From Saccoglossus kowalevskii (taxonomy: Eukaryota > Hemichordata > Enteropneusta > Harrimaniidae): 35,701 nt of DNA. The notes under the pieces were generated by a model, which worked only from the letters and a program-made list of their open reading frames with translations, made no database searches and was not told the origin of the DNA. The position numbers were made by a program, and so were the translations under genes. The stretch lies in the NCBI RefSeq assembly GCF_000003605.2, contig NW_003136836.1, positions 67,077-102,777 on the forward strand. Direction: 5' to 3'. Shown in pieces: positions 6,881 through 35,342 of the stretch (position 1 is its first letter; each line of letters opens with the position of its first letter).

Positions 6881-8008
6881 CATAATAATACTCCTTGTTT
6901 CAGATCGAGTGACACACTTTAGCCTCAATTTCTCAACCTTGAGCTAAATGCAACTCACTGAATACAATCTGTTTCGGACAAAAACAAATATGATTTTTTT
7001 CATTTCGTGAGATTTACAACATTTTATCCAAGTCAAGTTTGGAATTGTAAACTTACTCGAGCCCGTACAATTAACACCAAGATCATGAGAATAAGAGGAA
7101 ATACACGATAACCAAATTGATAATACAGTACTTACGGTTCGAGTGTCTCTTCCTAAATAGTTATATTTTCAATTTTCTATATTATAAGCGGGGTAGTAAA
7201 AACCAATTACTAGTTCTCCAACCAGCCGCAAAAAACACTATCGATCTTCGTTATGATTCAATTTATATTTAGTTGCTTATTCACAATGTCACGTGGGTGC
7301 CCACTCACGATAACAATAAATACTATGCAAATGAATAACTAATTCATTACTGACAATCATCAATCACGATGGCTTCACAAGGAAACTATCAATCTTATTA
7401 TTAAACAGTTGTTTAGTTAAAAAAAAACATATTTCGGGGTCGGCTCTTGTCTAAAGTAAATATCTAAAAACGTGTGAATACAAATCAATTTCAAACTCTG
7501 GATACGTTGACTGATTTTGTCCCCAGGGTGTCGTAAAATGCACAAATGAACAGCGTATTGTTAGTGATGATGATGTCATACAATTTGAATGTGTAGAGTA
7601 AAGAAAATAGCAACTAGTGTTTCACCAGCGGCTTTCACCGCGCTCTCCTAAATACTTGAAAACCCCCATAGACATGCCTGGTGAGAACAACCCGCGATCA
7701 AGAATATCGTATCTTTGTCGGTTAACACTTAGAATTATTTAAACTACTCGTAGTCATCCATGTTGCCCACCCCCATTTTTTTTATGAATTAGAATAGATA
7801 GCATATTACTATTTAAACATGTTTATTTGGGGCACGGACCACGATTTTGTTGTAGATAAATATGTTACGTCACGTCTATTACATACCTAATGTATATGAC
7901 TATACGGGAAATAAGCGAACGTGAGCGTTTCAATGAAATATACGACAGTTTCAGTTTTCCTACGATAATACATGCTTGGCGATGAAACGTGTCCTCATGT
8001 AAACCCCC

Positions 8009-8024
8009 CTCTCTCTCTCTCTCT
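8009..8024 (+). repeat. CT microsatellite
   Basis: Eight CT units follow a run of C. Confidence 0.9.
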
Positions 8025-8930
8025 GTAGATGCCAGAACACTTATACCACGTACTGGGTCCGATCAAAGAAAGCGTTGATATCTGTTTGATCTGAAGTCGC
8101 GTCCCTCAAGCCTATGCTTGGGCCAATGTGGCGGTGGAGTGTTCAGTGTTGCACCCCATTCGTTAAGTTCTTGATATGCAAAAACAAGTGGAATGGATTA
8201 TTTTGGGCCGCCGGGGAATACAGTTTAGTTTTGAAAGACTGGATATGCGAATCAAGCTTCTGATTTCGGACAGCTGCAGAAAATTACATTTAAATATGGA
8301 TGAGAAAATTGTGCAATATTGTTTGATATTATATGTTGGTGAATAGATTTTATGGTATACATACAAATAACGCGCATTTTGTCATCGAAACGAATACTAT
8401 CGTGATAACAGTACGTTGACTCATGGTTTTTGTTCCAAACTTCTATAGCGGGTGGTTTTTGTTCAGAATTTACTAGGAAACAGTACCTGTTTACTTGTTT
8501 CTTTATTCTTAACAATACCCATTTACCGGGAGAGGACCGTTTTCCGGACCTTGTTTGTTCCACATGACTAAAGTGAAGAATACCCCCCCCCACCCTCCTC
8601 GCTATTAATTAATAAATGGTGCATTTGTTAAGCAGCAATACACTTGATTTGAACTAACGATCTTCAGATCGATGTGCATTATTAAATACACTCTGATGAA
8701 TGAATTAAGCCGGTGGTTTGAAAGCAACATGTAGTTACTATGATATGTACATGAATCAGGTGCGATTTCTACAGGTCATTGAACCATTGTTCATTATTTA
8801 AGTTTCGCGACCATACCACACTTGTACACGACTGAGCTCAAGGTTATTAAGGACTCCATGGTGTCCAAACACTTCGCTAAAACATACCTCAACGATTATG
8901 TTCAGACGTTGAACATAGCACGCCGTCAGA

Positions 8931-8936
8931 TTTATT
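8931..8936 (-). terminator. Probable poly(A) signal of the TSR gene
   Basis: AATAAA on the minus strand lies 286 bases past the stop codon of the CUB exon. It is the first canonical hexamer I noticed in the downstream sequence. The cleavage site itself cannot be seen. Confidence 0.45.
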
Positions 8937-9221
8937 TCAAACATCAACATAACAGTACACAAAATGCGCATTTAGTTATAGAAACACAAACAAATATAAA
9001 AAAGCGTCAAAATTCGATATTTTTTGTAAAAAAGAGGCGAAGATAATTAATATTTGTTAAAATGTCATGATTGATCACACTTAAAAACAAGAAATAACCG
9101 TAAAATTGATATTCCTTAATTCACTACATACACCTTCAGAAATGCCAGGTAAAAAACATGAACTGTAAATTAGTTTAAAACCGTAAAACAACTGTTTTGT
9201 TTTGCGTTAATCTTCGTACTA

Positions 9222-9461
9222 TCAAGCAATTGAGCCAGCAAGATTTCCTCCGGTGATGTCCGTGTGGTTACTAAAATGTAGTGGTGGTAGGTCATCGGTT
9301 TCATTAGGTACGGTTGTCCATGTTAGGACGTATCCCGTTCCTTCGATACTGCTGTCTGTGTGAAAATATACATCTACAGTGCGACCCGACGATCTGAATA
9401 GTATTGGTTGGTCGGTAGTTCCACAGTACGTCTCAGAACTACCAGTTATTCGGTCTGTGAT
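9222..9461 (-). CDS. TSR gene exon 35: second half of CUB domain and stop
   Basis: The acceptor ttatacag|ATC leads to ITDRITGSSETYCG, FRSSGRTVDVYFHTDSS, GTGYVLTW, the second CUB half. A 31-residue tail with NET and NHT sequons follows, ending GNLAGSIA and TGA at 9222-9224. There is no hydrophobic C-terminal segment, so the protein should be secreted rather than anchored. Confidence 0.9.
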   Translation of the reverse strand: MTDRITGSSETYCGTTDQPILFRSSGRTVDVYFHTDSSIEGTGYVLTWTTVPNETDDLPPLHFSNHTDITGGNLAGSIA

Positions 9462-12400
9462 CTGTATAAAGAACGCGGGAAAAAAACATCGATAAATACG
9501 GCTCAGCAAATAACTCAGTGTTTGAGAATTGAATTTTCAAGATACCGAAAACAAGTCTCGTCTCGTTGTTGTCTCGCTCCTAAACGAGACCTCTGTGGCA
9601 TTTGCTTCTATGGTCGTGGTCTATTCAGCGGTTCTGGCGGTACTAGGATTCTTACTTTGTATTCGATACACATTTCGGTATTCGATAATACTTAAAAAAG
9701 CAAATATCTGACGTAAAAAATGCCTACCTTTAAGTGATCAAACGTGCAGTTGTCACTGTTTTCAAGATCCAAGATCAAAATATTGACGACCACGTGGACC
9801 TTGGTACTGGAGTTGTTCGGCAGCTGAATAGTGGTCGTACAGTCTAATTCGCTTGGATATTGCGAATCGGGATATAGTGGAGAGTCCATTTGACCGGACA
9901 GTGTATCGTAGATGCGTCCACAGCCTGGGGAGGAAACGAAGTGAATTATTGGAGGAAGTGACGTAAGTCGGCGTGACTACCAGCAAACTAAATTGTGCCA
10001 AGGGTTTAAACACTTCAGAGTTTAGAGGAATCTTCCGCCATGAAAATCACATCATACATCAAAAACATTCATAACGGGAATATACAAAACATAAACTCAC
10101 CATAGCGTTCTGGGCATTCGTCCATGTAACATTCTTTTTGGGAGGTTGGGGTTTCATCGGCATGGCAACGCCACTCGTCAACTCTCGAGTCAGGATTGTC
10201 CTTGTCAGTACGACATTCAATGACTCTTGTCTGCGTACCACAACCACAGGAAACCGTACACTAGAAGGAAATAATACGTTTACTTATTAGTCATAAAAAA
10301 AAAAAAATCTGCGTAATTTGTTGCCAATCTGTTTAAAATTTTAATCGATACGTATTGCCGAATTGAAATTATGCCCATTTGGTCCGAACAACACCGAAGA
10401 AAAATCACAATTTAGGCGGGAAACGTTATAAAATCCAAGGTGTAATATTGTACGAAGTTCAAATGCGTCATTCAGAGTTTGTACCACGCAGAAATCATCA
10501 ATATGGCGTGGGTTATGACTTCGTGGGGGGGGGGGGGGTCGCTAGGTTATCTGTACAAGATATGCAGACGAAAAATAAGACTAAATATTTGCATGAAATG
10601 GAAACATATCACGCAAAGCCTCTGAACAAAAATGGTCATTACCAGGTAAAAATATAGGGAATCGAAAAATTGTTACCTAACCACCCCGTCAGAAATATTT
10701 ACACACCCCTTATTTTGAATATTTACACTTACCTGTGACCAATCATGCGTGTACCAGTACGCGGGACAGTCGGCTAGTGTGCACATTTCAGTCGTTTCTG
10801 GTCTCAATTCAGGCATACACGCGGTATCCGGGACAACCGTGACGTCATTCAAGCTTCTACGACAAAATAGGCTACGTGTCCTGATACCCGAACCGCAGCT
10901 GACAGAACACTGATAAATAATATAATATAACCAAAATTAAAAAGAGTAATAAATGTGATTGTGGGCTGTATAAAAGTGTTTTTTTTTTTTATTCTGTAAA
11001 TTTAAATTTTGAATGTTAGATGCGCAGCATATGCCATATTTACACCGAACTTTTTCGGTTAATTATGATCGGAAGTTGTACAGCAATTTCAAGAGTACAT
11101 TTTTTTTACCAGGATTCTACATTAGACATGAAAAAAATGTCGAAGATTCCCTACAATTGGGTCATATTAATTTAAAAAAAAATTATACCTGTCCATATTC
11201 TCCTAATGTCCACACTCCAACGCAACCAATGGGTTGACACGAACGTACGGTGATTGGTTTAGTGAGACCGTTACCATAGCAATCAGTATCATTTGCTATG
11301 GTTACACTTGTGCCATATCTCATCATGCAACGTGCAGTTCTCTCCTGAGTGTTTGTATCGCAGTCACATTTACAATATTCACTCGTAATGAATACGAATC
11401 TATATACACAAAAAAATGAATAAAAACAAACGAGTCAGATGGAATATCACATCGAAGTCGCATTAAATGCAAGAAGGACGCGGCACGTGACACTAATAAT
11501 TAAACGAGGAAAAAATGCAATAAGTACTTACAATGATGACGAGCAAGTTGGTGAGTCGCACTGCTCTGACGTAACAGGACGTGTTAACAACGAACATAAC
11601 GCATCTGGTACTTCTACACTATTGGTTGAATCAAAACACGTGATCGTACGATAGCGAGTACCTTGGCCACAGGTGGTTGTACACTAGAAAAAAGGAAATT
11701 ATAATTAGCTTAGGCACAAATTCATAATTGTATACACAGAAACATGATAATTAAGGTATAAGTAACTCAACGATGCCAATTATTTCGAGTTTTACCTAGC
11801 TACTATCAGAATTAAATGTTTTGATGGCGTCATGGCTTCTCGTCACACAATTCGCAAGTCGATTCATTACAATAAAATGTCCCAAAATTAAACTAAATTT
11901 AATTAAACTAAACTTTGATTGTGGTGTTTTATACGAATACACCACAGCGTCATATTAGATTCGGATAAGGTCTAGCGAGAATGTGTTCGGCTTCGCCTCA
12001 TACTAGTATTACGTTTCCATCAACCATTTTCGTTTAATATGGCATTGTAGAGGATTTGTTGTTTAAACAACGGGACGACATTGTGTGCAATAATGTAATG
12101 AGATATAACGAGACGTAGTCCACGTCCGATCCATCTTGTCACGCAATGATTGGCAGTTCGACGGAGTCAGTTATTTCAATTAAAAAGTATGCGCATTGGT
12201 AGCTTAATAAAAAAAAAACGCGTCAGCGCGTCAATTACGCCGAAAAGTTAACAAGCAAACGACCTGCGAAAATACTAGTAGGTAAATTTCCAGATAAAAA
12301 TGAACATTTTATTTCCTGGACAAATAACGGAGGGTTTGTTGTTTCAAGGAGCCATGCTAACGTGAGAAATGCATTGACCTATTATCTCACGTGGTACCAA

Positions 12401-15400
12401 TCGACCGATGAGATTGCAGCTTTTCAATAAGCAGCGCACGGTATTATAATGAAATGTGTCAACTCACCTCTCCCCATTGACCAATCACAAATGAATACCC
12501 CACACAAACGGGAAGGTTGCACTCTTCGATACTTTGCGGACGATTGAGGGCGGCATTTACGCAATTGTTATCATAAACTTGGTTGTCAGTTCCAAGAGTT
12601 GTGCAGTAAACATCCCTGGTACGAGCCGCTGTTCCACATGTGGCAGAGCACTGCGAAAGACAGAATAACGTGTAAAGTTAATCGATGAAATTAAGAACTA
12701 CATAGAAAACAAAGAAAACAGGGTGCGACATCAACAAATCGCAACGAAACTTGGAAAGTTGTGTTTCATACCTCGCCCCAGACACCAACGTAGTAAGTAA
12801 CGCAGTGTTGTACGTCACAGAGCTCCACGGTGGAAGGGATGTATAAATCTGCGTCAACACAAAGTGTAGCAGATACTTCTGTGTCGGTTCCTTCGATGAC
12901 ACACGTAACAGATCGTATATGGTAGGACTGACCACACGTTGCGGAACACTGTAAATAATTTGAACATTGTGGGATTTCATTATTAAAAAAATATTCAGCA
13001 TCCTGTAAATACGGAGTGAGTATTAATTAATCTAAAATCTGCATTAGAAACAGTCATTGCCATTACCTAAATATGACTGATTGAATATTTGACTAATTGC
13101 CTGTTGTGTCCTATTATCCCTGTACGTGCAGCGGAGGTCGATGCTCCCCGTACTGTCTGAGTGCATACTTTTCGGTATCCTCGTATTATCTTTATCAATA
13201 TACATTTTTTCCTCCCAAGAATACATCATGGGAATGCCGAAATACAAAAAGTTTAGAACAGATTGAGCGAACTTCTTTGTATGGGGTCCGGTCAAGCCCT
13301 GTGGGCAGCCATGTTTGTTTTCATTATTAGAGGACGCTTATGAGCGTAATCGTTCTATATTTAGAATTCGCATTTCCTAATATAGTAAGATGAAAATACC
13401 CCGTAACATACCACAAATTTACGGCACGCTGTAACTTATGGCGCTACGGTGACAGATGTATAATAATGAGATATTACTAGCAGCGCATCTAGGCATAAGT
13501 AAGGTTATATACCGGGCATTGCACAGAGTGACAGGCTAATTGAATACATGTATACAATCTAAGTAAATTATTGTTTACATATGTGTTCACATATGAATAC
13601 AGTTAATTTCTTGAAATAGATAATTATAAATAATCATTGTCCATCCACGCACCTCTCCCCATTGGCCAGTCACAAATGCATACACCACGCAGGCAGGGAC
13701 ACTGCACGCTTCCGTCGTTGCTGGGCGAATGAGGGCGGAGTTCACACAATTGTTATCGTCGACTTCGTCATTGGTTCCGAACGATGCGCAGTAAACTTCT
13801 CGAGCACGAGATGCTGGTCCACACGTGGCAGAACACTGTGAGAGAATGGAAAAGGTTAAAGTTCAGGCGTTTAAATGTCAGTAGAGAACACATGTCATTT
13901 GCAAACAATTGTGTGATTTAATCATAAAATTATTGTCGACGACGGCAGACGCAACTTACCCCGCTCCAGGTACCGACGTAGTATGTAACGCATTCTGACA
14001 CACTGCAGATCTCCACGGTGGTAGGAGTGACTAAACCAGCATTTGCACACAGTGTTGCAGACACTTCTGTGTCAGTTCCCCCAATGACGCACGTGACAGA
14101 TCGTACGCGATAGGATTGGCCACAGGACGCAGAACACTGGAATGGTAAACACACGGGAGGTTAGCTTTCGAACTAAGCTACTTGTGGTCGAAATGTTTGC
14201 TTATTAGTGGTTTTGCTACGTCTGGACAGTTTATATTTATAACATTCATTTCTATTCATTATGTAATTGAAAACAAAATCGAAGCATATTACATCTCCCC
14301 AGGTACCGATGAGAAACTGCACACATTGCGGTACAGTGCAGTCTTCGTACGCCTTTGGTGCGGATAAACCTAGTTCCGTGCAGAGTGTGTCGTCCACGGT
14401 AGTACCGCTGCCTTGTTTCACACATGTGACGTCTCTAACACGTGCAGATGAACCACAGGTAGCGGAACACTGAAACAAAAAAAAATATACTTGCATGTCA
14501 ACAAAGATAAACTCAAACCTAAAGCGGGGGAGTCATTACCTGCGCATGTGTCAGATTGCCATAGTGTGTTTACAAACAAGCGTCTACCCATGAGCCTTTG
14601 CGTTTTTAGCGTGTGTTGTTATCGTCACGTGCGCAGGTAACCCTCCCGCTTTAACATGTAATGTTAAACATAACACAGCATTACAGTGCAATTAGCAAGA
14701 AGAAATTTACCAGTATATGGAACTCGAGCATGTAACCAAGAAGTGATAGTATAACAAGGTACTGTAACCTCAATATAATGAACACCTTTATAATGAATTT
14801 TCTGATATAATGAACACATAACATGTCTCCCGCTTACAACAAACCCAATGTATTACATTTTGTATGTGCTTCAATATAGTGAACATTTCACTATAACAAA
14901 CTAATTGTATGTCTCCCAAAGAGTTCGTTATAACGAGGCTACAGTGTATGCCGTTTCAAGGCTGTACTATGTACTTACTGCACTCCATTGAGCGGTGATG
15001 AATGCGTATACAGAGCATACTGGTACATCACAGGTGTCGGTGTTTATAGGAAGCGATAGACCAGTACCCGTACAATAACTGTCGTCAACTTGGTTACTCA
15101 GAGAGTCGCTAGATATACAGTAAACTGTTCTTGTTTTAATGGCAGATCCACACGTGGCTGAACACTGTTAAAAAACAAATTATTAGTCGATTATTCAATA
15201 ATTGCAAGAACAATAAGAGTTGTGCATACTGCAATTAGAATTCGTCATACTTGTACTGTGTTTGTCTTTTGTTTAAAGTCTGGTAAATGTCACATTTTTC
15301 AACTATGTTCGGACTTTATTTGCATATCTTATCACTTCAATAAAGGAATTGAGTTAACTACATAACGACACACGTCGGCTAGGTTTTACTATTCTCAACC

Positions 15401-18400
15401 GAAATCCTGATCGAGAAAGAAACAGCAAGTGGCTAGAAAAACTCCAAGCAGTTTGCTGAATAACTCAAACTTATCAACAACCGTACATACCTGTCCCCAT
15501 TCACCAATATAGAAGATGTAACACGTGGGTACGTTGCATATCTCAACAGTAACAGGTGATGACTCGTCAGGGTTGGAACACAGATTGGCGTTAACCAAGT
15601 TACTAGTTCCCTCGATGACGCATGTAACAGAACGAATACGGTAAGAAAAGCCACAGGAAGCTGAACACTGCAAGATATAACGAAAATGCATAGATGAGGA
15701 TTGAATAAATGTCAAACGTGTTCTATGATGACCAGAAACCAATAAATAGTTCAGAAGTAAAGGACAATATTAAATTATAATTTATTATAATTATAAGAAA
15801 GGCGAAGCCAATAATTCCTCTGAGGGTCATTATAACTGATATTGGCCGACAATGAGTTTTATTATATCGAATAAATAAACATAAACATTGGCGTATAAAG
15901 AAGACGCTCAATCCACGTGACGATCTTGAACACGAGGTATAGTAATTGTTCATAAGTACCTCTCCCCAACTTCCGATTAGGTATTGAACACAATCTTGCA
16001 CTGTACAGTTTTCTTGTGACTGTGGAGCGGATAAACCTTGCTCTGTACAGAAGGTGTCCGCCACAGTGCTGCCACTGCCTTGTTCAACGCAGGTTACACT
16101 TCGTACACGAATAGCTGTACCACATGTAGCAGAACACTGGAAGGCGATCGAATTTTAAGTCAATTTAGCAAGCAATATTTAAACAAATAGTTAGGCAAAT
16201 TAGGTTGAAAAGGTGATTCTTCACTGCCATTTTAAATAATATTTGCGGTGAACAGTTCGATTTCTATAACAATTAATCATAGCTGTCATAGGACACTAAC
16301 CTCGCTCCAGCCAGTAGTTACAAAGGCATAGACATCACACGATTGTAGATTGCAATCCTCAACACTTGATGGAACGTTTAACCCTATTTCGACGCAGTTG
16401 CTAATATCCACATCGTTTGACGTCCCATCAGAAGTACAATAGACATCTCTCGTTCTAATGGCAGAACCACATGTAGCTGAACACTGGAAGATAAAGAAAC
16501 TGTGATATCAATAATATATAATCATTATGTAAATATGTACGCCTACATGTGTTTGTGTATTTTTTTTTGTATCAGAAAATATTTTGTTTATTAAAATATT
16601 ACGTACCTCTCCCCATGTGCCGGTGAAATACGCGTAACATTGAGTAACGGTGCACATCTCCACGGTGCTAGGGGGTTGCAGCCCGTAGTTTACGCAGATC
16701 GCATTGGCAAGTTGTGTGTCGGTTCCCTCAACGATGCATTCAACTGTTCGTGTGCGGTACGATATTCCACACGTCGCTGTACACTGTTAAGAGAGGAGAA
16801 AATAGTTATGTGTGCAAGAAATATGATTCAAGAGATCGTAGATCAACAAATATAAAGTTTGAAAAATAAATGCTATGCGCGGATCATGAAAGTACTGGAC
16901 AACGAATTCGATTAATATTATTAGTAATTTTGACAAAATTGAAAACACACAAATGTGCAAAACATTGTATCATAATTTTGGTGGGAAATTTTGAAATGGA
17001 CAAAGCTTTGTACTTACATCCCCCCAGTTACCAATTTGGTAAGCAAAACATTCCTGTACTGTACACTCCTCCTGAGATGGCGGTTGAACGAGACCAATAC
17101 CAGTGCAGAACGAGTCTGACACAGAGACACTGCTGTTCTGTACTACACAAGTAACTGTTCTTATACGAACTGATCTTCCACACGTTGCCGAGCACTGCAA
17201 TAAAATTGCATTTATACTTTGAAAAATTACAGAAAAAGTGTTTAAAGGGCTAATACTATAGACACCATAAACCCATTCCCTTGACTTTTATAAATATTTA
17301 TAAGAGTTAATTGCGGATGAAAATGTTTCGTTATTCTATCTGTCAACAGTAACCCCTCGTTTCAATTTGAATTCTGATTTTGATAAATATTTACGAGAAC
17401 AAAATCAGAATTGGTTCATGGTGTCGATAGATAACACATCGTGTATATACTGTAAAATTGAAAAGAATGCAGTTTTGCTATGTTATTTTGTTATTTGAGC
17501 AACAGACTAAGCAATCGAAGCTTAGAACGCCATTCATCAATATACACCATTATTACGTCACGGAATATTTTCATCTATAGAGGGCGTGACCCGTGAATCG
17601 ACTGATTTGATGCGGTTTCAGCAGAAAAAAAAAATCGACTTACTGTGCTCCATTCAGTAGTTAAGTAAGTGTAGTTGAGACATGGTGGGTTGTCAAGGCA
17701 TATCTCTATCACAGATGGTTTGCTAAGACCGGCGTTAATGCACTCATTGTCAGTCACATGACCATTGGAACCAACAGCATTGCAGTAGACGTCCCTCAAT
17801 CGGTATGCCGAACCACAAGTAACCGAGCACTGTAACGAGAAGTATACGTCACATAGAATTATGTTCACAACTTTCAGACACCACCATTCGTCCACTCCGA
17901 AAAAAAATGCTGATCACTCTTAAAAACAAATGTTACTTACGTCGCCCCAAGGACCGGTATAAAACGTAACACAATCGCCCACAGAACATGTCTCCACTGT
18001 AGAGGGCGTAGTTAACCCGGCGGTCAAACAGAGATCGAGAGCGACCTCAGTGTTGTCTTCACCTACACACGTGACATCTCTCACGCGATACGACGAGCCG
18101 CACGTTGTGGAACACTGCAAACAGTAAAATAAAAAAAAAGTGTCAATTTTAAATCAAATAATAAATAAAATATAATATCAAACTCGTGACGGTGACGTCG
18201 AGTAGTTATATAAAACTGTACATTAGTTTACCTGTCCCCAGATTCCGGTCGTGAATTCTACACACTGTGGAACAGAACAATCTTCCTGAGTTGATGGCTT
18301 TGTCTGTCCTTGCCCGGTACACACGTCATCTGATACAACAGCGCCACTACTCTGTTCCACACATGTGACAATCCTCGCGCGAACTGATTCACCACAAGAG

Positions 18401-21400
18401 GCAGAACACTGAAAAAAAAGACACGTATATAGACCCGGTTATTTTCGCAAAGGAACCTTGCCCATCTGATATAAATGGCATATACGGTGAACATTTCGTG
18501 CATTGGTTTATTCACACACTTTTTTTTTAGTTTTCAAACTGCCTTAAGACGAAACTTACCTCGCTCCAGTCAGTAGATGTAAACGCGTAACTGAGGCATT
18601 GTGGGACAACGCACTCCTCGATGCTCGATGGGAGAGTTTGACCAAGATTTTGACAGACGCTGTCGGCAACGTTCTCGGTAGTACCCGAGTGTGTACAATA
18701 CACATCTCTGTTTCGGAACGAAGAACCACATGTAGCAGAACACTGAAACGGAAAAAAAATACGAGTCTCAGAATTTAATTCATTCACGTTTGTGTGCAAT
18801 CTTGTGTTTGCTTCCACATTTCTTACAATACACAATTTTGAAACTTTATGATACATACCTCGCTCCATACGCCGACGTAGTAGATAAAAGAACATGCAGG
18901 GACATCGCACATTTCGAAAAAGGTCGGCTGCTGTAGACCGGCATTTGTACATTCCGACGTTAAAACAGTTGTATTAGTACCGACCACGATGCAGCTCACT
19001 GATCGGATCCTGTATGCTTGATCACATGATGCGGAACACTGGAAAAAATGAAAAATTTTCTTTAGAAACTGTTTTTCCAGAATTACCGCAGTATATGATT
19101 ACGAATACATAACACATATAGTAAAACGATGTACGAAGTGTGTGAAATTACTGTACCTCTCCCCAGTCGCCCACAGTAAAGATGAACGTGGTGCATTGTT
19201 GGACAGCGCAATCTTCTTGCGTCGATGGTTTGGACACGCCGAGGGTGGAACACAACGAATCTGACACAGTGACATCACTGGATTGATCGACACACGTCAC
19301 ACTTCTTGTGCGATAAGAGCTTCCGCAAGTAGAAGAACACTACAGAAAGGAGAGAATACGAATAAATAATTACATCCAGGTTATCAAAGAAAATATTTAC
19401 TAAAATGTTAGCATTTGCATTATTTGTTTTTGATAAAACAAACCCTTATGTTTTGTTTTCAAGTAAATAATTATAAATTCAAATGACAGTTAAGTCTAGC
19501 AAACGACAACCATCGACCGCAATGTGTAATGACGATATTGATTGGATACTGTTCAACGATTCACGTGTGTGAGCTGAACCAATCAGATTCAGTTCACGCG
19601 TGTAGAATGTACACCTTTCTTTAATTCAAACCTTCTGGTTTGAATATATCAGCATAAAAACTAATGGGGTTGTAGTTCACCTCACGAGTTAATTTAAGTA
19701 ATGTTTTGATATTGTGATGTCGGCGTCGAAAGATGGTGTGCAGTTGCACACGTGTAAACGATTTCTACTTACGGAACTCCATTCGCCGACAGTAAAGGCA
19801 TACACTTGACATGCAGGTACGACACAAATGTCAGTTGCTGTGGGAACTTCAAGTCCGGCGCCAATACAGTTGTTCGTGTCAACTTGGCTAGTGCTTCCAC
19901 TTGCAGCACAATACACACTTCTTGTTCGGATTGCAGAACCACATGTGGCAGAACACTGAAAAACGGATCAAGTAATCGTAAAGTAACAATTTTAACGCTG
20001 AAGTGAACATGTGCCGCCATTTTACGAAAATGTACCCGGAAAAAGTTTCCCACGTTTTTTTAGTCGATGCGAAGTTGCTTACAAGATCGTTACCGATTCT
20101 AACCCAACATTCTATTTTTCGACCTATCAGCGTTAGCCTTTGAGAAGTGTATTATATACGTTACGGTTTAATACCATTTTACAGGTAGGTCGCCAATTCT
20201 ACTTACCTCTCCCCACGCCCCAGTGTAATAAGAATAACAGGCGGGCAATGAACAAGATTCAACAGTGGAAGGGTACTCGAGACCAGCTGACTGGCACTGT
20301 GACTGTGCTAACGCAATGGTCGTCCCGACAGTCACACATGTTAGTGTCCTCGTACGGAATGCTGTGCCACAGGTTGTGAAACACTGTAAGGGATTATACA
20401 ACATGGAATGAAAAAATCAACATCCGAGCAGTATTGTATTAACAGAATACGATTGAAATGAAAGTTACTGTCTTGGAGTAGTTATCACACGTGTTAGAGA
20501 GTAAACGCTAATGGCAATGACTTACGTCTGTCCATTCTCCCACGATATACTCAACACAAGGCGGTGTGAAGCATTCTTCCGTCGTTGTAGGTTTCTGAAG
20601 ACCATTCCCTAGACACAAGTCATCTGCAACAGTGAAACCGTTGGTGGACGCGACGCAGGTGACCGTGCGAAATCGGTAGGAGGTACCACATGTTGCTGTA
20701 CACTGGATATGATAGATTTTATAAAGCATAGTTAGTTCTTATGTATTTCACAAATTGCGTTTATTTGCCCGAGATATACTAACATTGCACGAGTACAAAA
20801 ATAGTTACCGTTCCCCAGGAAGTTGTGTCGAAAAAATAGCTTTGCACACAGACGGGAACGCTACACGTTTCTTGTGTGTTTGGTTTGGTCAGGCTCCTAG
20901 AAGCGCAGAATGCATCGTTAACCACGTCCTGGCTAGCCGACTCAACGCAAGTCACAGATCGTATTCTGATGGATGTTCCACATGTTGCCGAACACTGAAA
21001 ACAAACCACAACAACTAAATGAGTAATTTATGTATAAATATGCGATATCTATACGAGTATGTGGAGATTAAAGCCAAAAATGTCCCATATATCTGTGTGA
21101 ATGAAGACCTAAAATCGCCCGAAGCACCGCGCCGTATTTAAAGTGGTTTAACTGTACAGTTTCACATGATTTTATTCACCTGTTCCCAGATACCCGTTGT
21201 GTACACATAAATAACGCAGGATGGAACACTGCACACTTCCAAACCGACTGGCATAGTAATTCCCAGTGACGCACATTGGTTAAGGTTCACGGTTACCCCC
21301 GAGGTAGAGATACACGAAACCGTCCTCGTTCGGTAGGAACTTCCACAGGTAACCGAGCACTGCAAGACGTGAGATAATTCGGTGTGATTCAAGTTTTTCA

Positions 21401-24400
21401 CGTTGTGGAATTAATAACTTCATGATATAACTATCTCAATAAACGAATATTCAAACCATGTTGTGATTGAATCAATGTCTAAATTAGCATGAAGATTTAC
21501 AACGAACGAGGATGAACAAAATTGCGGTTTGATAACTTACTCAGACAGACTATCACACGACACATTACAGGTCTGTCCGTTCTATCTAAATTATATATAT
21601 AATGATATAATAATCAATTTACTTACGTCACCCCATGCACCCGCAGAGTACTGCAAACACTCAGGTACGTTACACGTTTCGACTGAAGCCGGCAGTTCAA
21701 TACCGGCACATAGACTGTTATCTACGATGAAACCGGATGAAGATGTACATGTCACTGACCTGGATCTAATTGATGAACCGCAACTTGCAGAGCACTGAAA
21801 TAACGAACATGTTACACTGATTAATTTACACCATTAGGTGTGTGTAGCTATAATAGACCAGTTTCGAGTTATAGCGCCATCAGTTGGTTCCGTGCGAGAA
21901 TGCTCGCGCAATTTAAAGACCACTTTCCCAGGGGTAGCGAAACTAGGATGCAAAAATACTCCTGCTTTGTCATGGTGGAAGATATAAGCAGTTTTATATG
22001 TGTATGATAACAGGCACACGAGCATTTATTTTACCATGGAAACCGTACTCACCGATCCCCATTGATTGACATTATACGTATACGCCACGGATGGACAAGC
22101 CGACAGTCCACATGACTGAATAGTTTCGGGTTTCACTACACTTGAGTTTTGACACAGACTGTCGTCGACAGAGTTACCAGTCGCACTAGTACACTGCGCG
22201 GTTCTCGATCTTGTCACGGTAGTTCCACAAGTAGCAAGACACTGACAAATAATTATTGGTATCTTATAATTTCCGGGGTTTTAGAAAGACTGGTGTGAAA
22301 TTGAATGATGCTGCTCTATATGATGTTATTTATTAAATATTTTAATAAAAAAACAATATGTGTCTCATTCGTGACGCCAGGTAAAGAATAACATAATTTC
22401 TGATTGCGTATACAAATTAAAATTCCGTCATGTTATCCATCGACCAATTACATTTGCACAAAATAGTTTGGTGTATTCATATAGCCATTATCGCAAGGGA
22501 GGATAAATCCTTCAGTTTATAACGGATGAGAAAATTGGGGATATTGACTTACAGTACTCCAAGACCCAGTGACGTAACTATAGGCGACTGTGACGCAATC
22601 CTGCAGAACGCAGACTTCTGTCACAGCCCTCTCGCCGAGTCCACTATTCACGCAGTTCGAGACATCGACTTGTGTTCGAGTAGACGAGTCGTAGCACAGC
22701 ACGAGACGGGTTCGAACACCGGTACCACAAGATACCGAACACTGCACAAGGAAAGAGAGGTCAAACTGTTAGAACTTTTGACCGTACAAAAGTTAAAAAG
22801 ATTAAAGAATATACAAGTTACAAGGAGTAGTAATACTCGGAATACATTCAACTAAACGTGTATTTGTTACACCGGTATATGTCAATTTAAGACCCCCCCC
22901 CCTCCCTCACCTTGCGCTTCGTCACATAGAATTTTTACCTTCACTTACCTGTCCAAAGCTGGTTGAAAAGTAGGAATAAGTGGATGTCGGACATTCTGAT
23001 AGAACACAGGGCTCTGATGTGGTTGGTGTGACAAGACCAGCAGAGGTACACGAGTCGTAGCTCACTGCTACGTTGTTGGTATCGAGGCAAGTCACTGATC
23101 GGTATCTCATGGCGTTGCCACAAGTCGCAGTACACTAAAAACAAATGACATGCACAGCAAATCAGGAATGTTAAGTCACTTCTGATTTCAACGACCAAAC
23201 ATAGACCTATGTTGACGTTTTCGACAATTGTCAAGCACGGTTAATTACAGAATATCGATTGGTCAAACTGATACACGCGTGTTCAATATTCAATTACAAG
23301 TTAGGTCGTCCAGTGCATAGCACAGTTTAACAAACGCGAAATTGGTTATTGTGTTAGCGCCATTTGCCGTTACGAGTATTCGGTAGTCAAATGAGCCGCG
23401 GTGGCGCTATTGCACTCACTGATATTATAGCGCCCGCAATGGCCACCGATCAACGAACTAGTACAGTATGAGGATGACAAAATAATTACCAAACTCCATG
23501 CCCCAACACTGTACGTGTATGTGTTTGTAGTTGTTGGGCACGCATTGGATAAAACACAGATTTCCACCGAATCTGGAAATTTCCAAATACCACAATAGTT
23601 GGCTTCCACTTCGTTGCCAGTTTCCAAGTTTGTGCACCTCACGTCACGTGACCTTGTACCTGTACCACATGACACAGAACACTGAAACAAATTCATAACA
23701 TAATATAAACAATTGTGCGTAAAACGTTACTGAAAATTAACAATCAGAAAAACTAGAAAATAAAATCCACACATCTCTTACGATCGAACTAACACAACAG
23801 TAAATTAGAAAATGAATTGTTCTTCTCAGAAAAATATCCAAATATGTATCTAAACACTTCACAAAATCATACCTGGCCATATACACCGGTAGACCATTCA
23901 AATTGTGTAGAAATTCCAACCTGCGTGGAGGAAAACTGTGACCACACTGATGTGAAGTTAGCCATCTTCACGTTCAAGGCGAGATAACAATTGCTTGAAC
24001 TATCCATACCGCTTGAAGAGAGAGAAGTGCCTTTCAGACATCCCATAATATAGGGGTAGTCATCGGTCACGTGATACTGGTATACCCCCTCGCTGTTTAT
24101 TCGACCGTGACACTCATCGAGGTCGACGGATGTCAAGACATTTCCCATCTCGTCAATATTACCGTAGATGGCAAACCCGTCAAGGGCCACGCCTGCAAAT
24201 AGAAAAGTATTTATCCACTTAATTAAAAAAACTCCTACTGAATTATCGGAAAATATGGAAATAATAATAATTAACAAAATTTACACAATGAGTACAAGTT
24301 TTTTTTCTTAATTAGTCCTACGACAAAATGAAATGACAGAATGAAAATCTTATTACAAAAACGAATGAAAAGTTATCAAACCAAAATCAAAACTTGGTCG

Positions 24401-25585
24401 GTAGACTGAAACCACAGTCACTTGGGGGNNNNNNNNNNNNNNNNNNNNNNNNNNNNNNNNNNNNNNNNNNNNNNNNNNNNNNNNNNNNNNNNNNNNNNNN
24501 NNNNNNNNNNNNNNNNNNNNNNNNNNNNNNNNNNNNNNNNNNNNNNNNNNNNNNNNNNNNNNNNNNNNNNNNNNNNNNNNNNNNNNNNNNNNNNNNNNNN
24601 NNNNNNNNNNNNNNNNNNNNNNNNNNNNNNNNNNNNNNNNNNNNNNNAATGTCGATTTCTTCTTACCTTAAAATGCGAAAAAATTTTTTTAGAGGGGGTC
24701 AGGTGTTACGTTAATAACCATTGTTCATAATCGCTAACTTGGTTTTATTCAAAACTGCACAAATCCCGCGTTTTCTGATGATATCCGACGATTTCATGAA
24801 CGAAAATGGCCAGCAGCCAGAATCAAGGGGGATTCGCACAGAGTTCTGGCGTTTGGAACCCACAGGGTGTCGATTTACTAGGTGCCGTGTTTCACAACTT
24901 GTTTATTTATATACGTATAGCGGATGATTTTTTTTGAAAATTAGTATTTATTGATTTTCAGCCCCCAAGTGACTGTGACTGAAACATCCAGGGAAGCATC
25001 ATATTGATTATAAACACTGCCCTCTATCGCAAATATTGCACCAATTTTATGTTAATTATCTGATCACTTTTACTACTTACCAATTATTTCACTCTCATTT
25101 AGCCCAGGGATGCATTCTGGGTAGGTACGATAAAAATACCTTCCCTGGAAATCGACACGGCCCTTACACAAGTCGACCTCTTGTCGCCACTGCCCAGTTA
25201 CTGCCTCTCGCCCAGTGCTATCAAATGGACTGTACATGGGCACGCCATTAATTGCCATAGCAACGGGACCATCTGGGAGACAGCCAGGTAAAACAGCGAC
25301 CTGTGGATATTGTGGAATTCGCATTTCGTATGTCTGGGGTTGAAGAGCGTAAGGAAAGTTTGGCTGCTGTGGGAAAACCCCAATTTGGTGGTCGGGGATT
25401 CCGTTGCTAACGATGACGTAATAATTTTGAGAGCCGACAGTTTCTGTTGCTATGGTGATGTTGCCAGTCTCGTTGGTGTTGAATTCTACAGTTGCATTTG
25501 ATCGGAACTGATGAAGTTCAAAGTCCGTCAAACCGTGTACTTTGTTCAGAAATAGGACAAACGTTATAAACATAGGTAGCCGCAT
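9222..25585 (-). CDS. Secreted YHYH - 31x thrombospondin type 1 repeat - CUB protein (complete, 35 coding exons)
   Basis: I joined 35 exons by GT..AG sites with consistent phases to a predicted protein of about 2,281 residues. Order: signal peptide (1-18), YHYH-family domain in two halves (about 85-225), 31 six-cysteine TSRs of the ADAMTS type (276-2136), and a CUB domain (2138-2270 or so) before the stop. Each TSR reads CSxTCG, an R-x-R-x-V-x-C strand, then three further cysteines and a single tryptophan just before the next repeat. There is no protease, transmembrane helix or GPI signal, so an extracellular-matrix or secreted role is likely; the exact function is unknown. The domain mix recalls ADAMTS C-terminal regions (TSRs, CUB in ADAMTS13), but the YHYH head separates it from them. 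Intron phases are 0 throughout the array except at exons 1/2, 30/31 and 33/34. Confidence 0.88.
9728..9924 (-). CDS. TSR gene exon 34: first half of CUB domain
   Basis: The acceptor cctccccag|GC completes a glycine, then CGRIYDTLSG, MDSPLYPDSQYPSELDC, VVVNILILDLENSDNC and FDHLK. These are the CUB signatures (Cys1, SP.YP..Y....C, hydrophobic strand ending D.E....C..D). NNSS and NCT give N-glycosylation sequons. Donor AAG|GTAGGC, phase 0. Confidence 0.9.
10101..10260 (-). CDS. TSR gene exon 33: TSR 31
   Basis: CTVSCGCGTQTRVIEC with an extra cysteine after CG, PTSQKECYMDEC, then ERY and the donor G|GTGAGT in phase 1. It carries seven cysteines; the odd one could pair with the CUB or another chain. 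Confidence 0.88.
10733..10909 (-). CDS. TSR gene exon 32: TSR 30
   Basis: CSVSCGSGIRTRSLFC, RPETTEMC, LADCPAYWYTHDWSQ. Looks like a canonical ADAMTS-type TSR (C-P-x-W spacing). 59 codons, phase 0/0. Confidence 0.9.
11189..11399 (-). CDS. TSR gene exon 31: end of TSR 28 and degenerate TSR 29
   Basis: The acceptor tatatag|A is placed to match the phase 2 donor. It continues LFVFITSEYCKCDC, so the CSxTCG opening is CKCDCD and the preceding tryptophan is tyrosine. It then returns to standard TSR sequence (TQERTARC ... RSCQPIGC) and ends TLGEYGQ. The acceptor is the least certain splice site in the gene. Confidence 0.75.
11532..11683 (-). CDS. TSR gene exon 30: TSR 28, first part
   Basis: CTTTCGQGTRYRTITC, SEQC, SPTCSSS, then the donor TT|GTAAGT in phase 2. 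The segment that normally carries the tryptophan is moved into the next exon. The GQGTR form is nearer to canonical ADAMTS TSRs than the central repeats are. Confidence 0.85.
12468..12650 (-). CDS. TSR gene exon 29: TSR 27, class C, extra pair
   Basis: CSATCGTAARTRDVYC, VYDNNCVNAALNRP, YSFVIGQWGE. Sister of exon 27. 61 codons. Last exon of the homogeneous block. Confidence 0.9.
12772..12948 (-). CDS. TSR gene exon 28: TSR 26, class B, extra pair
   Basis: CSATCGQSYHIRSVTC, VIEGTDTEVSATLC, PSTVELC, VTYYVGVWGE. Sister of exon 26. 59 codons, phase 0/0. Confidence 0.9.
13149..13468 (+). repeat. Dispersed 320-bp repeat in intron 27
   Basis: It runs from TACTGTCTGAGTGCATAC through CCTCCCAAGAATACATCATG to GGTGACAGATGTATAATAAT. 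A second copy lies at 32453-32774, and the tail of a third at 1-30. No terminal inverted repeats or coding sequence; class not recognised. Confidence 0.75.
13653..13835 (-). CDS. TSR gene exon 27: TSR 25, class C, triplet 6
   Basis: CSATCGPASRAREVYC, VDDNNCVNSALIRPAT, YAFVTGQWGE. Paired with exon 29 (YDNNCVNAALNRP, FVIGQWGE). Donor GTGCGT. Confidence 0.9.
13960..14136 (-). CDS. TSR gene exon 26: TSR 24, class B, triplet 6
   Basis: CSASCGQSYRVRSVTC, GTDTEVSATLC, PTTVEIC, VTYYVGTWSG. Nearly the same as exon 28 in GTDTEVSATLC and VTYYVG, also at DNA level. Confidence 0.9.
14293..14469 (-). CDS. TSR gene exon 25: TSR 23, class A, triplet 6
   Basis: CSATCGSSARVRDVTC, KQGSGTTVDDTLC, PKAYEDC, FLIGTWGD. 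59 codons. It is the last A exon; the B-C pair after triplet 6 has none. Confidence 0.9.
14519..14654. mobile_element. TTAA-type MITE in intron 24
   Basis: The inverted ends are TAAAGCGGGGGAGTCATTAC and, on the minus strand, TTAAAGCGGGAGGGTTACC. The right end has an intact TTAA and the left is CTAA. The interior (ACAAACAAGCGTCTACC, CATGAGCCTTTG, GTGTGTTGTTA) matches the element at 31743-31906. Confidence 0.65.
14761..14946. mobile_element. pogo/Tigger-like MITE in intron 24
   Basis: The terminal inverted repeats are ACTGTAACCTCAATATAATG on the left and ACTGTAGCCTCGTTATAACG on the right (minus strand). A-T-rich internal tandem motifs (TATAATGAAC) follow. Ends of the form CTGTA.CCTCG.TATAACGAA are common in pogo/Tigger-derived MITEs. 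No transposase is present. Confidence 0.6.
14979..15164 (-). CDS. TSR gene exon 24: TSR 22, class C, triplet 5
   Basis: CSATCGSAIKTRTVYC (first Arg replaced by Lys), VDDSYC, VYAFITAQWSA. 62 codons. The intron after it carries two MITEs. Confidence 0.9.
15491..15667 (-). CDS. TSR gene exon 23: TSR 21, class B, triplet 5
   Basis: CSASCGFSYRIRSVTC, VIEGTSNLVNANLC, PVTVEIC, FYIGEWGQ. 59 codons, phase 0/0. Confidence 0.9.
15960..16136 (-). CDS. TSR gene exon 22: TSR 20, class A, triplet 5
   Basis: CSATCGTAIRVRSVTC, VEQGSGSTVADTFC, PQSQENC, YLIGSWGE. 59 codons. Very close to exon 25 (GLSAP, VQYLIG/VQFLIG). Donor GTACTT is weak. Confidence 0.88.
16301..16483 (-). CDS. TSR gene exon 21: TSR 19, class C, triplet 4
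   Basis: CSATCGSAIRTRDVYC, VDISNC, PSSVEDC, VYAFVTTGWSE. 61 codons, donor GTTAGT. Confidence 0.88.
16607..16783 (-). CDS. TSR gene exon 20: TSR 18, class B, triplet 4
   Basis: CTATCGISYRTRTVEC, IVEGTDTQLANAIC, PSTVEMC, TGTWGE. 59 codons, phase 0/0, donor GTACGT. Confidence 0.9.
17018..17194 (-). CDS. TSR gene exon 19: TSR 17, class A, triplet 4
   Basis: CSATCGRSVRIRTVTC, VSVSDSFC, PPSQEEC, YQIGNWGD. 59 codons, phase 0/0. Confidence 0.9.
17644..17829 (-). CDS. TSR gene exon 18: TSR 16, class C, triplet 3
   Basis: CSVTCGSAYRLRDVYC, VTDNEC, then EICLDNPPC with one extra residue between the last cysteines. NYTYLTTEWST is a variant of YAF and carries an NYT sequon. 62 codons. Confidence 0.9.
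17941..18114 (-). CDS. TSR gene exon 17: TSR 15, class B, triplet 3
   Basis: CSTTCGSSYRVRDVTC, TEVALDLC, PSTVETC, GPWGD. 58 codons, the shortest of the ABC block. Confidence 0.9.
18232..18408 (-). CDS. TSR gene exon 16: TSR 14, class A, triplet 3
   Basis: CSASCGESVRARIVTC, VEQSSGAVVSDDVC, PSTQEDC, GIWGQ. 59 codons, phase 0/0. Confidence 0.9.
18560..18742 (-). CDS. TSR gene exon 15: TSR 13, class C, triplet 2
   Basis: CSATCGSSFRNRDVYC, PSSIEEC, LSYAFTSTDWSE. 61 codons, phase 0/0. Confidence 0.9.
18859..19038 (-). CDS. TSR gene exon 14: TSR 12, class B, triplet 2
   Basis: CSASCDQAYRIRSVSC: the glycine after the second cysteine is Asp, so the O-fucosylation consensus (CxxS/TCG) is lost here. 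PTFFEMC replaces the class B TVExC. All six cysteines are kept. 60 codons. Confidence 0.88.
19157..19339 (-). CDS. TSR gene exon 13: TSR 11, class A, triplet 2
   Basis: CSSTCGSSYRTRSVTC, VTVSDSLC, PSTQEDC, GDWGE. At 61 codons it is the one A exon longer than 59, with two extra residues before the tryptophan. Donor GTACAG. Confidence 0.88.
19773..19955 (-). CDS. TSR gene exon 12: TSR 10, class C, triplet 1
   Basis: CSATCGSAIRTRSVYC with the class C tyrosine before the third cysteine, VDTNNC, and VYAFTVGEWSS. 61 codons, phase 0/0. Confidence 0.9.
20207..20383 (-). CDS. TSR gene exon 11: TSR 9, class B, triplet 1
   Basis: CFTTCG with F in place of the usual S, RTRTLTC, PSTVESC (class B mark), TGAWGE. 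59 codons, phase 0/0. Confidence 0.9.
20526..20702 (-). CDS. TSR gene exon 10: TSR 8, class A, triplet 1
   Basis: CTATCGTSYRFRTVTC, then the class A loop FTVADDLC, PTTTEEC, and IVGEWTD. First member of the first ABC triplet. 59 codons. Confidence 0.9.
20809..20994 (-). CDS. TSR gene exon 9: TSR 7
   Basis: CSATCGTSIRIRSVTC, PNTQETC, TSWGT. A-like (TQExC) but with a longer segment before the tryptophan. 62 codons, phase 0/0. Confidence 0.9.
21180..21359 (-). CDS. TSR gene exon 8: TSR 6
   Basis: CSVTCGSSYRTRTVSC, LEVCSVPSC, GIWEQ. 60 codons, phase 0/0. B-like at the start (SSYR) but not a clear member of any class. Confidence 0.9.
21627..21794 (-). CDS. TSR gene exon 7: TSR 5
   Basis: CSASCGSSIRSRSVTC, PASVETC, GAWGD. 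With 56 codons it is the shortest TSR exon. It starts to resemble the central A/B classes (VDNSLC). Confidence 0.9.
22053..22241 (-). CDS. TSR gene exon 6: TSR 4
   Basis: CLATCG, TRSRTAQC with the third cysteine preceded by AQ instead of VxC, tryptophan in NQWGS. 63 codons, phase 0/0, donor GTGAGT. Confidence 0.9.
22553..22741 (-). CDS. TSR gene exon 5: TSR 3
   Basis: CSVSCG, RTRLVLC, six cysteines, tryptophan in GSWST. 63 codons, phase 0/0. Closer to TSR 1 than to the central classes. Confidence 0.9.
22949..23134 (-). CDS. TSR gene exon 4: TSR 2
   Basis: CTATCG, RYRSVTC, six cysteines. The usual tryptophan before the next repeat is phenylalanine (TSFGQ). 62 codons, phase 0/0, donor CAG|GTAAGT. 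Confidence 0.9.
23490..23681 (-). CDS. TSR gene exon 3: TSR 1
   Basis: CSVSCG opens the array, with RSRDVRC and six cysteines, closing on GAWSL. At 64 codons it is the longest single-TSR exon. Its third cysteine pair is spaced unusually (EIC..SNAC). It is diverged from the central repeats. Phase 0 at both ends. Confidence 0.9.
23873..24192 (-). CDS. TSR gene exon 2: second half of YHYH domain and linker
   Basis: The acceptor tttgcag|GC completes the glycine of exon 1. It encodes VALDGFAIYGNID, DLDECHGRI, GVYQYHVTDDYPYIMGC, the classic second half of YHYH proteins (DGf.iyG .. LDeC.G .. YHYH.t..yPY..gC). The motif reads YQYH at 206-209. A short linker ends FEWSTGVYGQ and runs straight into the first TSR cysteine. 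The donor CAG|GTATGA is phase 0. Confidence 0.88.
24413..24977. mobile_element. hAT-like non-autonomous transposon containing the assembly gap
   Basis: Both ends carry the 16-bp inverted repeat CACAGTCACTTGGGGG (right end read on the minus strand). The element is bracketed by the 8-bp direct repeat ACTGAAAC at 24405-24412 and 24978-24985. An 8-bp target duplication is typical of hAT elements. It sits in the intron between exons 1 and 2. Positions 24429-24647 are N, so an internal ORF cannot be excluded, though the 565-bp size argues for a MITE. Confidence 0.8.
24429..24647. other. Assembly gap (219 N)
   Basis: A run of N starts directly after the left terminal repeat of the hAT-like element. 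It lies in an intron and does not interrupt coding sequence. Confidence 0.99.
25081..25585 (-). CDS. TSR gene exon 1: signal peptide and first half of YHYH domain
   Basis: The ATG at 25585 starts a signal peptide (MRLPMFITFVLFLNKVHG). A beta-rich stretch with N-glycosylation sequons follows (NAT 30, NET 38, NIT 42, NES 163). The first YHYH-family half is AINGVPMYSPFDSTG (111-125), then the CKGRVDFQGRYFYRTYPEC block (140-158). The family motif Y-H-Y-H is here Y150-F-Y-R153, so its histidine is lost. The donor is ATTG|GTAAGT, phase 1. A possible 5' UTR acceptor lies just upstream (tttttgatag), so the transcript may start further right. Confidence 0.88.
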
Positions 25586-26140
25586 CTTGCTCGGCTGACG
25601 TCACACCGGAACCTATCAAAAATGAATTGTAAAATATATAAATATTATATTAGATGTTGTGGGCTTTTATATGCAAAAGAAAACTCTTTATTTACTTTGT
25701 TTAACTGTGTCGTGCATTTGATACGATAAACACAAACAAAACAGTGTTTCGTTTCTTGTTGCCATTGACCCATTGAGAAATGTACATGCATAACCTATAC
25801 AATGTCTACAAATATTTGTATAATAATGCGCCCAATAACAGTCAGAAAGAAGACTATAGCACGAAAAACAATTGTTTTACTCTGTTATACAATTATACGT
25901 GCATAAATGTGTAACACGCAAGCATAATGGTTTCACACGTGGTGCCAGCTTTATGACAACGTGCAGAACTATCAGGTGCAGTCAACAAGTAAATTTTCAA
26001 AAATGTTTGGTATTTATGTTTGATCAACAGTAACTTAATTTATGAACATTATTAAGGCTTAATTTAATTTGGAGGGGAGAGGTCAATCTGTTCGCAACTC
26101 CCCTCCCTCTCAACCAAATTAAATTGCCCTCCCACTCAGT

Positions 26141-26311
26141 TTTGCTCCCACTGCCCTCTCCCCACTCAGTTTTTGTTCCCCACTGCCTTCTCTCCAATCG
26201 GCTTTGCTCCCACTGCCATTTCCCCACTCAGTTTTTGTTCCCCGCTGCCTTCTCTCCACTCGGTTTTGCTCCCACTGCCCTCTCCCCACTCAGTTTTTGT
26301 TCCCAATGACC
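26141..26311 (+). repeat. Minisatellite, 31-bp monomers in 62-bp dimers
   Basis: Monomers start at 26141, 26172, 26203, 26234, 26265 and 26296. Odd copies begin TTTGCTCCCACTGCC and end CACTCAGTT. Even copies begin TTTGTTCCCC and end TCTCCA. Alternation gives a 62-bp higher-order unit. Diverged units continue on both sides (about 26110 and 26400-26510). Strong pyrimidine bias on the plus strand. Confidence 0.85.
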
Positions 26312-26670
26312 CATTTCACCGGCAACACTCTTTATTAAAAGAGTTGTACCCAAGTTCAAATTTTGCGCTTCTGAAAAATACAATGTACAATCAGTGATTT
26401 TGCCCTTACCCGCTCAATCTAAAAATGGAACTGCCCTCTGAATAAAAATCTTCTCCTACTGGAATTCCCCTCTGAGAAACCCTATTTTTAATTCCCTCCC
26501 ACTGAAGATGTTTTATTTTGCCTGCCCGCTAAAAATCTCTTGCGAACACATTTTTTCACGAACAGCTCCGTTGACTGCACCTAAACTATGCGGTGTTTCA
26601 GCGGGTAAGCGCACTTTGATTTGTGAACTTTCTCTAACCAATAAGAAGTTATTCCATCTGGTGCAAAATA

Positions 26671-26699
26671 TCATAGACCCTCCACTGGAGGGTCTATGA
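26671..26699. repeat. Perfect 13-bp hairpin
   Basis: TCATAGACCCTCC and its exact reverse complement GGAGGGTCTATGA flank a 3-base loop, ACT. No coding or RNA-gene context is visible. Confidence 0.85.
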
Positions 26700-27431
26700 A
26701 AATATACAACATAATTGTAGAATACATGAGAAAAGGGATAGTAAACACTGAACTACGGCAATCTCGGAGAAAAGGTGAACTTGTATTTATAAAAATGTTT
26801 CTAAAATATAGGAAAAGATTTGATTTTACGCGCACGTCAAGCAAAACAGTCAGTTCAGACCAAAACAACGTATTCAAATTGAAATCTAAAGCGGGGGAAA
26901 TGCGGTGTTAATTACACTTTCATGTAATGCAGAAGTGACGACTGAGATTTCTATAAAACAAAAGGCAATTGAAATAAACACAGATGTGTCAGAAGGTAGT
27001 TTTCTCGCAAGTAGGATGCGAGAACTCAGAGACAATAGAGAATATATCGCGGGAAAGGGAAATAAAAAGGAGTTTATGACGGCGTCAACGTTTCTGTACA
27101 ATGGAAGTTATGTTCAATCATCGAATTAATCGCGTCCCTGTAGTGGATGGACGCTTATATTGTGGATTTTCGGTCAAAAAACAAATATGCACGGACAATG
27201 TGGTTTAGATGGGGCATAATAGTCAACAAATTGTCGACCGATCTGCGATCATTCCGGAATCGCTCAATTTCAGTCATTTATATACAAATAACATTATTGA
27301 ATTCAGGTACGACACTTCACATGCGACCATCCGCCTTATTGCTGCGTATATATTACGCACAATTGGATAAAACGTTACTCGTACGAAACAAATTTGAGAG
27401 ACTTTTGTGAGCTTTATCAACAGTATAATAC

Positions 27432-33221: not shown

Positions 33222-35342
<2,121 letters not shown>

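Follow-up and report, generated by a model that had tools for sequence, protein, structure and literature searches.

How a long row of TSR exons comes to be built, exon by exon or in larger blocks, is the question raised by a gene of the hemichordate Saccoglossus kowalevskii. We analysed 35,701 nucleotides of its genome (NCBI RefSeq assembly GCF_000003605.2, contig NW_003136836.1, positions 67,077 to 102,777), hereafter the window, whose minus strand carries 31 TSR exons numbered here T01 to T31. An earlier note, made from the letters alone, had proposed that its exons 10 to 27 (our T08-T25, 20702 to 13653) fall into three classes, A, B and C, recurring in exact order six times, with one more B-C pair behind them (T26-T27, 12948 to 12468). 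These 20 exons, read on the minus strand from 20702 down to 12468, indeed run ABC six times and then B-C, an order borne out by a peak of identity at lag 3, by order shuffles and by a freely built tree. We propose, with a probability of about 0.88, that the TSR exons split into classes A, B and C and that a three-exon block was then copied in tandem to six units and a B-C partial one. The array is listed below; every exon was assigned from its letters, the tree and its class profile, and T26 and T27 also from DNA matches to the T24 and T25 regions, respectively.

20526..20702, minus strand: T08, class A, unit 1
20207..20383, minus strand: T09, class B, unit 1
19773..19955, minus strand: T10, class C, unit 1
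19157..19339, minus strand: T11, class A, unit 2; 183 bases, tail of 12 residues
18859..19038, minus strand: T12, class B, unit 2; lacks TVExC
18560..18742, minus strand: T13, class C, unit 2
18232..18408, minus strand: T14, class A, unit 3
17941..18114, minus strand: T15, class B, unit 3; weakest assignment (2.8 bits)
17644..17829, minus strand: T16, class C, unit 3
17018..17194, minus strand: T17, class A, unit 4
16607..16783, minus strand: T18, class B, unit 4
16301..16483, minus strand: T19, class C, unit 4
15960..16136, minus strand: T20, class A, unit 5
15491..15667, minus strand: T21, class B, unit 5
14979..15164, minus strand: T22, class C, unit 5
14293..14469, minus strand: T23, class A, unit 6
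13960..14136, minus strand: T24, class B, unit 6
13653..13835, minus strand: T25, class C, unit 6
12949..13652, minus strand: intron between the C exon of unit 6 and the B exon of unit 7, 704 bases, where an A exon is expected; no TSR relic (profile search, self-comparison)
12772..12948, minus strand: T26, class B, partial unit 7
12468..12650, minus strand: T27, class C, partial unit 7

Mean identity between the exons of T08-T25 was 0.513, 0.507, 0.508 and 0.508 at lags 3, 6, 9 and 12; the remaining lags from 1 to 11 gave 0.401-0.451 (0.433 at lag 1). The order was then shuffled 20,000 times and the best score over periods 2 to 6 recorded: the observed score was reached by no shuffle for T08-T25, by 2 for T08-T27 and by 23 for T01-T27. 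The last figure is the fairest, since T08-T25 had been chosen for its pattern. T01-T08 alone showed no period (19,367 of 20,000 shuffles matched the score). The period in T08-T25 is carried by the domain body, from the first to the sixth cysteine, by itself (0/20,000) and more weakly by the last eight tail residues by themselves (116/20,000). Along the DNA, successive A exons lie 931-1667 bases apart, in agreement with the 0.9-1.7 kb spacing that had been predicted.

The test that had been suggested was a tree of the TSR peptides with three clades. We ran it on the 20 array exons: in a free tree under a mixture model, A (85/94), B (75/34) and C (93/92) each formed one side of a branch, the bootstraps being rough. 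The classes thus separated as expected, with weak support for B. Neighbouring exons clustering together had been named as the result that would speak against the proposal. Under LG+G4, trees forcing neighbouring exons into clades were 199-201 log units worse in all three registers (approximately unbiased test, p <= 7.7e-6), while the tree constrained to the classes lay 1.0 log unit from the free one. Leave-one-out class profiles, with labels themselves read from exon order, placed all 20 exons correctly, T15 being the weakest at 2.8 bits. Identity by lag, the free tree and the rejection of neighbour clades together support a class split older than the amplification, and lag identity and trees indicate that amplification proceeded by blocks of three exons or of a multiple of three.

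The letters proposed as class marks held up in part. VYC at the third cysteine is found in 7/7 C exons and in none of the 13 A and B exons, the tyrosine before this cysteine having the same distribution; TVExC marks six of the seven B exons (T12 has FFEMC instead) and QE precedes the fifth cysteine in 4/6 A exons. YAF, said to be usual in C, is a weaker mark, present in five of seven (the other two read YTY and YSF). V-x-D-x-x-C, proposed for A, occurs in all six A exons but also in 5/7 C exons (0/7 B), and so fails to separate A from C. As to lengths, the C exons measure 183, 183, 186, 183, 186, 183 and 183 bases, five of the six A exons 177 (T11 has 183) and five of the seven B exons 177 (T12 has 180, T15 174). 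The extra length of the C exons sits after the sixth cysteine, in a tail of 12 residues in 7/7, so that the end of the exon codes for the start of the next TSR; T16 and T22 also have one additional residue in the body. From T08 to T27 the tails measure 10, 10, 12, 12, 11, 12, 10, 10, 12, 10, 10, 12, 10, 10, 12, 10, 10, 12, 10 and 12 residues, mostly a 10-10-12 spacer, and the period-three score of T08-T25 was reached in 19 of 20,000 permutations. At the junction from T25 to T26, where A is missing, the C-type tail remains with its C body, which fits whole-exon copying through breaks in introns. Net charge showed no clear difference between the classes.

Several observations weigh against this history. 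The neighbour-clade trees represent a strict form of the rival, and their rejection leaves room for some mixed histories. Besides its weak support in the mixture-model tree (75/34), class B is not set apart by a single branch in the LG+G4 free tree, where C joins inside it beside T09 and T12. When T01-T07 were added, T01, T03 and T04 fell with C and T02 and T07 with A, several of them on long branches; by profile, T01, T03 and T04 also scored C-like (14.7, 20.7 and 8.9 bits). T11 and T12 break the spacer pattern, T11, of class A, being as long as most C exons. Finally, the gene trees of the three classes, compared in three registers with little power, were no more congruent with each other than under label permutations (best 160/720 and 24/120). 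Outside the array, T05 (11.6 bits), T07 (13.4 bits) and T28 (margin 11.2 bits) were A-like; together with the C-like scores of T01, T03 and T04, these indicate that the classes extend beyond the ordered stretch.

The disagreement between the class trees counts in favour of a variant of the proposed history, in which the copied blocks were larger than one trimer or lay in different registers, the ABC order being inherited through multi-trimer duplication. We regard this variant as possible, at less than even odds. The C exons T10 and T22 also pair in the tree (96/94), and at lag 12 T10-T12 resemble T22-T24 (0.49, 0.44 and 0.44 in variable columns), but this likeness ends at T13/T25 (0.30). The youngest event, from the B and C exons of unit 6 to those of unit 7, was of trimer size or smaller, and with exons of 60 residues and little power, 71, 54 and 77 of the 105 topologies for A, B and C, respectively, were not rejected. 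With class trees that disagree, the trimers may have been copied singly or several at once; these trees give no evidence of a stepwise history of single clean trimer copies.

The last unit has no A exon, and both a deletion of A and the copying of B-C only are compatible with what we found. A lost A exon was sought by profile, with the first 40 rows of a tblastn comparison also taken into account: of the 24 profile matches outside T01-T27 at E <= 10, T28-T31 were the four above threshold, and none lay in the intron between the C exon of unit 6 and the B exon of unit 7. T28, itself A-like, stands where an A exon would follow the C exon of unit 7. The same intron holds a repeated element (13150-13467, 85% identical to 32453-32774).

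How old the copies are could be judged from their divergence. Same-class copies share a mean protein identity of 50-54%. Agreement at third codon positions is 0.36 within classes, 0.325-0.343 from one class to another and 0.258 for shuffled columns. Synonymous divergence (dS, NG86) was examined in eight of the 57 same-class pairs: it was 0.96 for T24/T26 and 1.01 for T25/T27, the youngest pairs, and 2.5 for T20/T23, while the other five pairs yielded no dS value; in the six older pairs the fourfold sites (15-25 per pair) match at 0.07-0.40. At the DNA level the youngest copies are 74% (T24/T26) and 73% (T25/T27) identical. The corresponding matches, 12769-12951 with 13957-14139 and 12459-12679 with 13644-13863 (both 75%), extend slightly beyond the exon ends. 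The off-diagonals expected in a dot plot were nearly absent: little was seen beyond the youngest pair, and three matches between array exons reached E < 1e-6 (12459/13644, 12769/13957 and 18695/19908). Among 26 introns, five weak matches were found at E <= 0.1, one of which joins like junctions (C-A with C-A). The array is old, and the classes are kept in the protein and hardly in the silent sites. What distinguishes satellite higher-order repeats is that their copies are homogenised and nearly identical; the analogy with them drawn in the earlier note does not hold for copies of 50-54% protein identity with near-saturated third positions and introns that can hardly be aligned. The introns themselves showed two further features. 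Those between C and A tend to be longer than those between A and B or B and C (433, 151, 449, 164 and 509 bases, within 14470-19772; a weak tendency, 346/20,000 permutations), and the one between the C exon of unit 5 and the A exon of unit 6 carries one copy of an 85% identical repeat (14520-14626 with 31744-31855).

These figures also bear on concerted evolution, in which gene conversion among same-class exons, as in satellites, would have made the classes no older than the copies. Same-class exons are alike in both body and tail, T13 and T10 (both C) share a 54-base tract at 85% DNA identity, further short C-C tracts at the exon start reach 78-83%, and the match of the last two B-C pairs runs slightly past the exon ends. 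This reading is nevertheless very unlikely, given the low fourfold matches in the six examined same-class pairs besides the youngest two and third positions hardly more alike within classes than between them. Slightly less probable still is that the exons were copied singly and that the period reflects convergence under selection for three alternating surfaces. In its favour, class-specific columns are few (nine were flagged, two of these being gap columns), and synonymous sites hold little history. But single-exon copying predicts that neighbours are most alike, whereas identity was lower at lag 1 than at lag 3 and neighbour-clade trees were about 200 log units worse; the tyrosine before the third cysteine is confined to C, and the C-type tail keeps to the C body even where B follows. 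That an unordered TSR array was read as ordered by chance can practically be dismissed: the classes share most letters, and V-x-D-x-x-C does not tell A from C, but shuffled orders reached the observed score in only 23 of 20,000 trials for T01-T27 and never for T08-T25.

The array lies within an apparently complete gene of 35 exons, whose frame runs open from a methionine to a stop codon over 2,281 residues. The model was assembled from stop-free stretches and splice sites; the exon search on the minus strand required an AG followed by a cysteine codon and an in-frame GT donor, so that phase 0 was built into it. All 34 introns have a GT donor and an AG acceptor, both of which the search demanded; the joined frame of the exons so found remains open across all 35. 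In the model the first cysteine of a TSR opens each exon from T01 to T27, and both exon boundaries are in phase 0. The remaining features of the gene are as follows.

25081..25585, minus strand: exon 1, with the start methionine, a signal-peptide-like stretch (by eye) and part 1 of the YHYH domain (gene model and Pfam PF14240)
23873..24192, minus strand: exon 2, part 2 of the YHYH domain (gene model and Pfam)
20809..23681, minus strand: T01-T07, exons 3-9 of the earlier note, without a period of three (identity by lag, class profiles)
11532..11683, minus strand: T28, A-like (margin 11.2 bits), in the A position after the C exon of unit 7; leaves in phase 2 (profiles, gene model)
11189-11399, 10733-10909 and 10101-10260, minus strand: TSR exons T29, T30 and T31, class margins <=2.0 bits (profiles, gene model)
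9222..9924, minus strand: CUB exons (9728-9924 and 9222-9461), then the stop codon (gene model and Pfam PF00431)

The encoded protein begins with a signal-peptide-like stretch and a YHYH domain split between two exons (PF14240, E 5.5e-15, 56.3 bits for a cut-off of 25), continues with 31 TSRs of the ADAMTS type and ends in a CUB domain, likewise split between two exons (PF00431, E 1.2e-14). The TSR type was recognised with PF19030 (TSP1_ADAMTS): the scan, which covered T08-T10 of the array, gave 99.3 bits for these against a cut-off of 23.8, and T31 scored 28.3 bits. All 27 exons from T01 to T27 have six cysteines, spaced 4-11-14-14-5 in 19 of them. No metalloprotease was found by Pfam scans of the three minus-strand frames of the two flanks, 23701-35701 and 1-12000. 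Searched by sequence, no PDB chain matched at E <= 0.01 (best E 0.59), and no RNA family reached its gathering score. In the model the intron between T28 and T29 (11399-11683) is in phase 2, from which the other introns between TSR exons differ; it may have moved or been newly gained. A gap of Ns (24429-24647) falls within the intron between the two YHYH exons. Elsewhere in the window, fragments of a family 9 glycosyl hydrolase gene follow the TSR gene, also on the minus strand (about 487-687 and 2657-2812; PF00759, E 2e-18 and 3.5e-11), a minisatellite with units of 30 and 62 bases lies upstream of the TSR gene (26131-26305), and there is a 201-base direct repeat of 100% identity at 6310-6510 and 6680-6880.

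On this basis, TSR exons in the middle of the gene would first have diverged into the three classes, and the three-exon block would then have been copied repeatedly in tandem, presumably by recombination in introns, which left six complete units plus an incomplete one of B and C. Since the model gives all array exons phase 0 boundaries, any whole number of exons could be added without a change of frame. The copies would then have diverged to near synonymous saturation with class-specific residues retained, which suggests that selection held the classes. The modelled protein contains 27 WxxC and 29 CxxS/TCG motifs, and passages of PMC11990869 give WXXW/C as the C-mannose consensus and CXX[S/T]C as the POFUT2 O-fucose consensus. 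This correspondence makes it most likely that the protein is secreted and glycosylated, forming a rod that ends in YHYH on one side and in CUB on the other. Judged from the sequence, the rod would most likely be an extended, extracellular one of disulfide-bonded TSRs that displays or spaces these ends and ligand sites, and spacers of 12 residues after C and mostly 10 after A and B would give it a structural period of three domains. The spacer, mostly two residues longer at every third TSR, and the class-specific aromatic residue before the third cysteine led us to consider that the three-TSR block might be more than a trace of duplication and serve as the working unit of the molecule, providing for example a ligand site, a bend or an assembly contact per trimer, with the period kept by selection while synonymous sites came close to saturation; we hold this idea only tentatively and think it less likely than not.

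Literature searches for super-repeats or higher-order repeats of TSRs found no paper, a search for the YHYH domain with thrombospondin turned up one phage paper, and wider searches gave no relevant title among the matches listed. The ordered TSR array is a further case of a known process, the tandem expansion of multi-domain super-repeats that is seen in nebulin and complement receptor 1: similarity peaks at 3, 6, 9 and 12, the exon pattern is alike in each block and neighbours are not nearest relatives. Of the systems closest to it, nebulin is intracellular, and the TSR protein THSD7A has two alternating TSR types (a period of two, against three here) and, to our knowledge, no YHYH or CUB domain. 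Passages of PMC8662735 do not state this alternation. THSD7A resembles the present protein in its long TSR array, of 19 TSRs (18 in THSD7B) according to passages of PMC11990869. The ADAMTS and ADAMTS-like proteins share the TSP1_ADAMTS type of TSR, and ADAMTS13 also has CUB domains (PMC8051872); here, in contrast, no metalloprotease appeared in the scanned flanks, YHYH is N-terminal and 31 TSRs stand in a row.

Complement receptor 1 is likewise extracellular, and part of PMC6883348 describes a multi-domain, multi-exon unit of seven SCRs duplicated within one gene into four copies, with two functional sites that are nearly identical. Here the domains are TSRs, the unit is three and same-class copies share 50-54% identity. 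In nebulin, as in our array, a multi-domain block is the tandem unit, visible as a peak of the similarity vector at distance n; a four-exon block recurs there with seven domains, and exon borders fall within domains (passages of Bjorklund et al. 2006, PMC1553488). The array described here has instead a unit of three, one TSR body per exon with borders just before the first cysteine, and a most likely secreted product. According to the same passages, duplicated units range from one domain to nine, and one example shows its peak at three; they also raise, on a sample their authors call too small, the suggestion that repeats spread by exon shuffling may be copied as single domains and those spread by other mechanisms as several (PMC1553488). 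The present array is a counter-case to this suggestion, with one TSR body per exon and symmetric phase 0, yet copied in threes; its three-domain unit, if functional, would be directly testable in this protein.

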